Below are positions 364-19,522 of a stretch of DNA of 32,094 nt, in pieces. Within the stretch, counting starts at the first letter, position 1, and each line of letters starts with the position of its first letter. Below the pieces are notes generated by a model. That model was not told the DNA's origin. It saw only the letters and a list, made by a program, of their open reading frames with translations, and did not search any database. Position numbers and translations under genes: made by a program. Origin of the DNA: Nitrospirota bacterium (lineage in GTDB: Bacteria; Nitrospirota; Nitrospiria; Nitrospirales; Nitrospiraceae). The stretch is from the NCBI GenBank assembly GCA_013388555.1, contig JACAFD010000197.1:1-32094 (forward strand), in the 5' to 3' direction.

Positions 364-999
364 GCTTTAACAATGGAGCCACGCTACGCGAAGAGAATCG
401 CATCCACGTGAGAGAGATGGGTGAAAGAGATGGGGTCGTTGCTTGACTTTGTACCTGGCCAACTCTATAGCAGCCTGAGCGAGCAAGGTCTGTGCAGGCA
501 ACCGACCGATCCTTCCCTACCCTACGCCGTCTACACTGAACATGAACAATCCCAGTTACCCTATCCTAAGCAGTTCCGTCCGGCGCGAGGGGGGAGCGGG
601 TCGGCACCCGTTGTCGGAGGGGCGGGGACCCACCGAGGCGTGACCGAAGTGGAAAGCCGGAACTGACGGCACCGCGATCGTATGATCGCGGCCGCGGGAA
701 TTCCGGAAGGATTCCACGAGGTCACGCCCGGAAGGGTCGCCCCGGGAGATACGAGGGCCGACCCGCTTCCCCCTCGCGCTGTGTTAGGTGTTGCGATCCA
801 ACATCTATAAGCCTTACATGCTTTGCTCCCGCTATACGCCATCAGCTATCAGCCATTCGCTCCCTTGTCCCTAAAGCATCGGCTTCTACCCTCCTGTACC
901 CCGCAGATCCTGCGCTCTCACAGAGGTTGTGGGAAATTTCATGGAGACCTGCTATAAGGCTTGGCCAAGGTGTTGATTTATTAGAGCCAAGCAGGACTA
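364..999. other. Gene-free stretch carrying structured element A
   Basis: No convincing gene is seen between the MBG-protein stop and the small gene starting at 1000. Open frames crossing this stretch on both strands are low-complexity and overlap the long palindrome at 583-779. The remainder (364-582 and 780-999) shows no terminator with a T-tract, no tRNA fold and no clear promoter. Confidence 0.6.
583..779 (+). ncRNA. Structured element copy A, possible HEARO/omega-RNA-like ncRNA
   Basis: The ends, 583-604 and 758-779, are complementary over 22 positions; the only non-Watson-Crick position is a G-U pair. This closes a 197-nt element. Inside are short hairpins, including one around CGCGATCG at 673-690 and one in GGGAATTCCGGAAGGATTCC (696-715). 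Three internal blocks recur at 18860-19038: 651-667 (15 of 17 identical), 696-715 and 727-748. The closing stems of the two copies are unrelated in sequence, yet both pair. That points to conserved RNA (or single-strand DNA) structure. The GGAAAGC..GAACTGAC block and overall size remind me of HEARO/IscB omega RNAs, but no IscB or HNH gene is in the window. Strand is chosen by that resemblance only. Confidence 0.5.
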
Positions 1000-18213: not shown

Positions 18214-18494
18214 TTAACTGGCGAGCTTGTGAAAAGAAATGCCGGTCATGTCGAGATCTTTGCCGGCACGGAACAGCCGTTCGACTGCAGCGCTGATCTT
18301 GAGGGCCATCTTGCCTGGCACACTCCTCGTCCCACAGCGACCGCAGAGCATCGCGTTGACGTTTTCCACATCGGCATAAAACCCGCCGCGTTCGAAGTGT
18401 AGCGTGGTTCGCCCCTGGCGCATCGCCGTACCGCACTCAGGACAGGCCTTGCTGCCTAGCGCTTTCTTTTTTTCGAATTTGGCTTTTTATCCAT
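18214..18494 (-). pseudogene. YgiT/MqsA-type zinc-finger antitoxin-like gene, frameshifted at an A7 tract
   Basis: The minus-strand frame ending at 18214 encodes ACPECGTAMRQGRTTLHFER...NAMLCGRCG, a YgiT-type CxxC...CxxC zinc finger. It is followed by a PGKMALKISAAVERLFRA segment. These are features of antitoxins of the MqsA/YgiT class. In the sequence as given, no ATG, GTG or TTG opens this frame before the first CxxC. If the run of seven A (18467-18473 on the plus strand as T7) had eight, the frame would begin at ATG 18494 as MDKKPNSKKKK and read through to the zinc finger, giving 93 residues. The same extra base would end the upstream DUF4258 protein naturally at a TAG (18456-18458). A one-base loss, by mutation or sequencing error, is therefore likely. 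A shorter product from ATG 18423 would lack the first zinc knuckle. Confidence 0.7.
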
Positions 18495-18763
18495 TGGTCC
18501 TGTTGGGGAACGTACGTAGTGACAATATCCACCGATCGCCCCGCGCTGAAGTCTACCACAACATGAACAGGAGTCGTATCCGCGCTGTGTCCATAGATCA
18601 GATACCACTTCCTGTCCGGATACTGGTCAATGATTTTCCTCGTCTGGATCACGTGGAGGATGTCAGCCACGCTGATCCCGTCTTTGAATCCCTCAGTGAG
18701 GGCATGGTCCGTAACAAAGAAGTTGCCCTTACTGATGGATGTCCTTATAGCGTCAATCTCCAT
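18437..18763 (-). CDS. DUF4258 protein, putative toxin of a toxin-antitoxin-like pair
   Basis: A 108-residue protein from ATG 18763; an upstream TTG at 18799 is less likely. It shows the DUF4258 pattern: FFVTDHALTEGF near residue 17, IIDQYPDRKWYLIYGH in the middle, and PVHVVVDFSAGRSVDIVTTYVP...W at the end. The conserved histidines and Tyr-Pro-W end suggest a small BECR/RelE-like fold, and such genes often lie beside YgiT zinc-finger genes as toxin and antitoxin. The last residues (after IRKK) are probably read in the wrong frame because of the A7 tract at 18467-18473. With eight A, the protein would end RKKRKR and overlap the zinc-finger gene. Toxicity is inferred from family context only. 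Confidence 0.75.
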   Translation of the reverse strand: MEIDAIRTSISKGNFFVTDHALTEGFKDGISVADILHVIQTRKIIDQYPDRKWYLIYGHSADTTPVHVVVDFSAGRSVDIVTTYVPQQDQWIKSQIRKKESARQQGLS

Positions 18764-18859: not shown

Positions 18860-19038
18860 GTGCGATGCCGAGGCTCAGAGCGGACATCACCGAAGGAGCG
18901 GGGCCCCGTCGAGGCTCCGCTGAGAAGGAAAGCGGAAACTGACCGAGTCTGCGAGGGAATTTCCGAAGGTTTCCGCTCGGCGGGGCCCGAACGGGTCGCT
19001 CTGGGAGGTGTGGGAGCGGTTGAGCCTCGGCATCGCAC
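18860..19038 (+). ncRNA. Structured element copy B, possible HEARO/omega-RNA-like ncRNA
   Basis: The ends 18860-18877 and 19021-19038 are perfectly complementary over 18 bp and close a 179-nt element. The inside contains GGAAAGCGGAAACTGAC (18927-18943), GGGAATTTCCGAAGGTTTCC (18955-18974) and CCCGAACGGGTCGC...GGGAG (18986-19007). All three match the blocks of copy A in order and spacing. Neither closing stem resembles the other, so the pairing is kept while the sequence changes. It lies between the DUF4258 gene and the unknown gene at 19067. No protein partner is adjacent. Confidence 0.5.
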
Positions 19039-19066: not shown

Positions 19067-19522
19067 TTACGCTTTGGATTTGATCGTCGACGAGGTGTCT
19101 GACTCCGCGGCCTCGCCACCTTCTTCTTGGGCAAGCTTTTCTTCTTCCGGCACATCGAACCACTGAACCAGCATCTCGTCCCACCAGGTTTCATCAATCT
19201 CTTTGCCAGGATCGTTGCCGAGAAACGCGACATCATCCTTTGTGATGTCGGGACCGACAAGCTGAGGCTGGAACTTCGCTCGTTCGACAATCTCTTTTGT
19301 GGCATATCCTCCGATGATCCACGAATCTGGGTCGGCCCGACGGGATTTGTAACCCTTGAGCCCGATCTTGAGATACATGAATATCTGTTGTTGCGCAGGG
19401 TCCCCGACACCGGATTGCGGCAAACCTAATGTTTTTTCAATCTTTTTACGCCAATGCCGGTCGTCGTATCGGGACGTGATCAGTTGGAGGATGGTCTTTC
19501 CCTGTTCGGCATCAAGCGGCAT
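19067..19522 (-). CDS. Protein of unknown function, 151 residues
   Basis: A soluble protein from ATG 19522, fixed by AAGGAG about seven bases upstream; a GTG two codons earlier would leave the ribosome binding site too close. The N-terminal half is basic and helical (EQGKTILQLITSRYDDRHWRKKIEKTLGLP). The middle has Trp/Gly-rich segments (SWIIGGYATKEIVERAKF), and the end is strongly acidic (EEEKLAQEEGGEAAESD) before a basic tail. No known motif or transmembrane helix was recognised. It follows the dienelactone hydrolase gene on the same strand after 116 bases, so co-transcription is possible. Confidence 0.7.
   Translation of the reverse strand: MPLDAEQGKTILQLITSRYDDRHWRKKIEKTLGLPQSGVGDPAQQQIFMYLKIGLKGYKSRRADPDSWIIGGYATKEIVERAKFQPQLVGPDITKDDVAFLGNDPGKEIDETWWDEMLVQWFDVPEEEKLAQEEGGEAAESDTSSTIKSKA

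Follow-up and report, generated by a model that had tools for sequence, protein, structure and literature searches.

A 32,094-nucleotide contig of a Nitrospirota bacterium (the window, meaning the whole stretch of DNA analysed) carries two elements whose internal blocks agree while their paired stems differ, and the question they raise is whether such an element is an RNA that works through its fold or a piece of mobile DNA. An earlier note, made from the sequence alone, had reported the pair and read it as a functional structured RNA or a transposed single-strand hairpin.

Copies A and B and their family

Coordinates and sequence bore out that description. Copy A lies at 583..779 and copy B at 18860..19038, both on the + strand, and each forms one near-continuous full-length hairpin. 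The closing stem of copy A pairs 583..605 with 757..779 (GCGCGAGGGGGGAGCGGGTCGGC and GCCGACCCGCTTCCCCCTCGCGC, with one G-U) and that of copy B pairs 18860..18877 with 19021..19038 (GTGCGATGCCGAGGCTCA and TGAGCCTCGGCATCGCAC); the two differ in sequence and both are paired, as the note had it, and the inner stems differ too. Three blocks keep the same order in both copies (GGAAAGCCGGAACTGAC/GGAAAGCGGAAACTGAC, GGGAATTCCGGAAGG/GGGAATTTCCGAAGG and GCCCGGAAGGGTCGC/GCCCGAACGGGTCGC), the first being a conserved internal-loop motif located by pattern match at 651..667 in copy A and at 18927..18943 in copy B (both +). GGAAAGCNGNAACTGAC occurs without mismatch at two places in the window, copies A and B only. 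Minimum free energies were -152 kcal/mol for copy A and -113 kcal/mol for copy B (z = -10.3 and -7.5), and none of 200 shuffles equalled them. The reverse strands fold nearly as well as the forward strands, which a palindrome would lead one to expect; the strand of copy A is taken here as the one whose loops read GGAAAGC...AACTGAC, and the family alignment is further evidence for the element.

A covariance model was built from copies A and B (240.7 and 229.9 bits to the model, by construction). In their own genome it matched 11 places, of which one is copy A read in antisense and one or two others are fragments, leaving about 8-10 copies; in the genus, all 32 sampled genomes had matches, 1 to 17 each, some of them perhaps antisense or fragments. 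A refined model from 94 copies was run against 246 sampled genomes of the phylum. It matched 24 genomes that belong to nine further genera of the family, and five from f18, a second Nitrospirota family and the only other one with matches in this sample. The further copies in related genomes that the earlier note had asked for thus exist in the genome, the genus, the family and f18, and their presence excludes a chance match of A and B. An exact-motif scan of species genomes gave, among the matches listed, mostly Nitrospira and Nitrospirae MAGs, with a few Patescibacteria (Chisholmbacteria, Yanofskybacteria, FK_Sedi_B_Bin.260) and two unplaced MAGs. The Patescibacteria and unplaced MAG matches scored 28-64 bits with the refined model, inside the range of antisense readings, and the Patescibacteria link therefore rests mainly on the motif. 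Viral contigs had no match to the family, and plasmids had short weak matches only. The family is not represented in Rfam, and the searched literature held no description of it, the palindrome and MITE papers returned being concerned with other elements. Copies A and B are members of an undescribed family of dispersed, gene-free, hairpin-shaped elements of about 200 bases.

Insertion sites and IS66-type relatives

The elements have the behaviour of non-coding DNA that has been inserted. Orthologous sites with and without a hairpin are clear within the genus at purQ-purL, where seven genomes run from purQ straight into purL and eight have a hairpin starting at, or a few bases from, the purQ stop; in one genome (G007) the order is purQ, hairpin, purL fragment, HicBA, purL. 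The 3' side of purQ carries a different hairpin repeat in 10 other genomes. The region after fdx varies between genomes: it can hold either of two stem types that are unrelated to each other, half hairpins whose break lies at the apex, or a second family of repeats. Among the loci read, of which many belong to the fdx set, isolated 5' halves outnumber isolated 3' halves. Insertion into pre-existing terminator hairpins was considered and rejected, as the empty purQ-purL sites and the fdx site of G026 have no such stem. Two more hairpin repeat families, of the GGGGTAGCCTGGCC...GGCCACCCC type and the CCGCGGGTCCTGCCGCTGACC type, use the same stop codons (fdx 3' ends, L139-L158; purQ 3' ends, L162-L171), one nested inside the other. 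A MITE-like repeat (GCGCATGATTCATG...CATGAATCATGCGC) interrupts some hairpins (L067 480-837, L097 2276-2633, L052 3700-3890).

In f18 the copies are young, the core being identical over 126 of 126 bp at two unrelated sites (L319 and L321). Their ends resemble GTAAtgCCTCGGTGAA...TTCACCGAGGcaTTAC, i.e. GTAA...TTAC, and target duplications matching at 7-8 of 8 bp flank 6 of 20 copies, against 0 of 380 mismatched-pair controls. A 2.4-kb f18 transposon (G085:C135:732-3109) has the same terminal repeat, GTAACCCCTCGGTGAA, at both ends and encodes an IS66 transposase (PF03050, E = 1.7e-36) and a DruA-like protein; this transposon copy has no target duplication of its own. IS66 elements, including the one-ORF ISBst12 group, are reported to have GTAA-type ends and 8-bp repeats (PMC12898284, PMC12888890, PMC3281130). 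With the ends, the duplications and an IS66 transposon bearing the same repeats all found, the f18 hairpins are palindromic MITEs of an IS66-type transposon, and it follows that pairing kept despite sequence change is by itself no proof of a functional RNA. The earlier note had named membership of a known IS end as a finding that would count against its reading; f18 comes close to this, as the hairpin there fills the space between IS66-type terminal repeats.

The Nitrospira copies have their fold, loop order and motifs in common with those of f18, and the link between the two is the covariance model, to which most f18 matches score 82-102 bits against up to 57 for antisense readings of the family. 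The Nitrospira copies, the two of the window included, have no GTAA ends and show no duplication signal (3.2% versus 2.7% in mismatched pairs); a 9-bp repeat, AGACGGTGA, flanking the ychF copy of G019 is one suggestive case. No IS66 gene was found in the five Nitrospira genomes tested, including the genome of the window, whose assembly consists of 327 contigs; controls matched. The window copies are short, non-coding, dispersed and bounded by terminal inverted repeats, as MITEs are, and lacking GTAA ends and an 8-bp duplication they are therefore not filed as IS66 MITEs. Judged by the common fold and loop motifs, and not by ends or duplications, the Nitrospira copies including A and B would be older members of the f18 kind. 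A DruA-like protein gene is present in the genome of the window (L381 1414-2316, G000:C112), with no IS66 gene found beside it.

We give a probability of about two in three to a reading in which the family consists of palindromic, MITE-like DNA elements that do not move autonomously. Their ends would be recognised by a transposase acting in trans, which would insert the hairpin elsewhere; inserted copies would persist for long and decay, often to halves; and the fold may be kept since the folded strand matters for mobility or serves at gene 3' ends. This is favoured by the dispersal in many copies, the empty and filled purQ-purL sites, the differing states after fdx, the half elements, the f18 ends, duplications and IS66 gene, and the occurrence of copy A at unrelated sites as part of a larger unit (below). 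Against it stand the missing ends, duplication signal and IS66 gene in Nitrospira, where the tie to f18 is the covariance model, and the orthologous copies, which persist and keep their pairing beyond what is expected of dead insertions.

Covariation, strand and genomic surroundings

Over the 94 copies, standard pairs fill 93.9% of the pair cells and compensatory changes on both sides occur at 53 of 62 pairs, which upholds the claim that stem sequence changes with pairing kept. The covariation score was 0.543, compared with 0.159 in shuffled and at most 0.093 in slid alignments, its level being inflated by the fitting of the 94-copy alignment to the model. Arms that are wholly different between loci still pair under a strand-neutral alignment. 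The internal loops, the motif at 651..667 among them, are near-invariant, and the apex takes two forms, one short and one with an added hairpin. That the closing stems were taken from the insertion target was rejected: between different loci, core similarity of 0.90-1.0 goes with stem similarity of 0.79 and core similarity of 0.65-0.75 with about 0.5 (shuffled, 0.48), so that stem divergence grows with core divergence and the stems are therefore not set by the target. One apparent stem swap remains (L075 and L035).

Pairing-keeping double changes also exceeded the independent expectation at fixed sites (outer stem 65.7 versus 27.8, inner 15.5 versus 5.2, apical 2.5 versus 0.6), the clusters of loci having been defined by hand on matching flanks. 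Such an excess could come from repair between the arms of a palindrome. Since repair of that kind would be apt to remove the conserved mismatched loops, and these persist, some selection on structure is plausible. Pairing appears to be constrained after insertion, and the fold may have a retained use.

These observations bear on the strongest alternative, a structured RNA or mRNA-end element (insulator or stabiliser) that was dispersed and then kept for what its fold does in the cell. The strong covariation, the near-invariant loops and the excess of double changes even at fixed sites speak for it, as does the inner stem, where G-U outnumbers A-C by 22 to 7 under the strand-neutral alignment; the outer stem has no bias (36 versus 35), and in both counts related copies enter at full weight. 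The inner-stem figures hint that the folded strand is the + strand of the window copies, but single-stranded DNA would give the same bias. The position of the elements fits an mRNA-end element as well: on the 3' side the nearest gene is convergent in 44 of 73 cases, with its stop at a median distance of 29 bp, and the 5' side has no such preference (neighbours called by a simple codon-usage script). These genes are read opposite to the hairpin strand, however, no T-run follows either arm, which also rejects an intrinsic terminator, Rfam has no match, and the f18 relatives are transposable. On balance we regard this alternative as rather unlikely. Of the earlier note's reading, the structured family with compensatory stems stands, and a transposed single-strand hairpin was one of its two options; the pairing does not prove an RNA, and MITE-like palindromic DNA is favoured.

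The flanks show the same asymmetry. Pairs of loci share the 3' flank in 89 cases and the 5' flank in 20, and when only one flank is common the counts are 72 versus 3; in part this follows from the position at gene ends. Nitrospira copies often have their 3' side against gene stop codons and variable DNA on the 5' side, often toxin-antitoxin, HicB or restriction-like genes (names read from sequence, mostly without a family test). At copy B, a gene on the - strand (19067..19522, simple codon-usage call) faces the 3' side of the element with its 3' end, 28 bp away; its product has no Pfam match, and in G002 a hairpin occupies the same place beside this gene, with a shared flank. On the 5' side of copy B, positions 18214-18763 hold a DUF4258 gene (PF14076) next to a small one of zinc-finger-like type; the two probably form a toxin-antitoxin pair. 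All inverted neighbouring copies seen are arranged (-)...(+), with 5' ends facing. Between inverted hairpins, trypsin-like peptidases occur in two genomes (L051 1280-2089 and L260 2847-3593); the match to LmuA of Lamassu defence is weak, and the peptidases are dissimilar to each other. At L310-L318 (G260), L072, L135 and L260 the element is preceded by a leader of conserved sequence, CTGAACGTGGCGAAGCG, and by a second hairpin, a short one whose loop is conserved and whose paired stem varies; what had looked like a common gene upstream of the G260 copies is in fact this non-coding leader with the second hairpin.

Copy A is preceded by a leader of about 155 bp (427..582, +), and the two are conserved together at several loci of the genus. 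Over roughly its first 28 bases the leader is similar to RAYT-type terminal repeats, and its sequence at 427-455 (GATGGGGTCGTTGCTTGACTTTGTACC) matches the terminal repeat of RAYT (Y1) elements and of 60-bp MITEs that occur throughout the genus (e.g. L099, L118). The unit of copy A and leader is found at several unrelated sites and is present in G003, G008, G016 and G019; probably a RAYT-type repeat landed beside the copy A hairpin and the pair then moved or recombined as one. A promoter for copy A (TTGACT-17-TATAGC) looked plausible by eye, and a promoter scan called none.

The leader could suggest that the elements are very large REP-like sequences which RAYT (Y1) transposases move in the form of single-stranded hairpins, and the RAYT-type terminal repeat that also adjoins L034, the hairpin shape and the (-)...(+) arrangement of neighbours would agree with this. 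Single-strand Y1 transposition is not known to make target duplications, yet the f18 copies carry them; most copies are without RAYT-type ends, on which ground RAYT mobility was rejected, and the genome of the window has a single Y1 fragment, below cut-off and at a contig edge. We consider this origin improbable.

That the elements are HEARO/omega RNAs of IscB systems standing alone, trans-acting or decayed, as the earlier note had suggested from a likeness of the loop motif, is hardly credible: apart from that likeness and a similar length nothing points to it, Rfam release 15 gave no match in the window even at E <= 1, divergent family copies matched neither the HEARO model nor any other in Rfam, no neighbouring ORF inspected resembles an IscB/IsrB nuclease, and RF02033 and PF14239 (the IscB N-terminal family) had no matches in the genome, in searches that had no control match either and so leave absence unproven.

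Significance and known systems

Strong covariation together with conserved loops is usually taken to mark a functional RNA. Here it occurs in a family whose relatives are transposable, and covariance-based RNA discovery therefore needs a check for mobility. The family occurs about ten times in a nitrifier-type genome, where its copies lie at gene ends and mark places with variable genes, and the f18 transposon offers a direct way to test what makes a palindromic element keep its precise fold. A bolder possibility, which we put forward tentatively, is a mobile hairpin that would inherit its fold and not its sequence, its loops being fixed while the two arms of its stems drift together, even where the chromosomal site stays the same. 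It would form a one-sided border at gene 3' ends where toxin-antitoxin and other variable genes gather, and act as a structure-selected insertion signal (single-stranded DNA or RNA) common to Nitrospirota and Patescibacteria.

Among known systems, HEARO RNA (RF02033) resembles the hairpin family in length only, neither a model match nor an IscB signal having been found. The enterobacterial RU-1 and RU-2 repeats (127 and 168 bp; PMC2759123) are likewise small, MITE-like, palindromic and intergenic, in an unrelated host group, the likeness being one of description. REP/BIME sequences with RAYT (PMC2817692, PMC3733652) are dispersed intergenic palindromes too, and copy A lies beside a RAYT-type terminal repeat; however, REPs are palindromes of 20-40 bp beside a RAYT gene, while the present elements measure about 190 bp, are few in number and have relatives with target duplications. 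With the MITEs of IS66-family insertion sequences (ISBst12 group, one transposase ORF) the f18 copies share GTAA...TTAC ends, an 8-bp duplication, the lack of a gene and a full-length transposon with the same ends. The Nitrospira copies differ from these in ends and duplications, and the family as a whole is set apart by a hairpin fold that takes in the entire element, its internal loops conserved and its paired stems free to drift.
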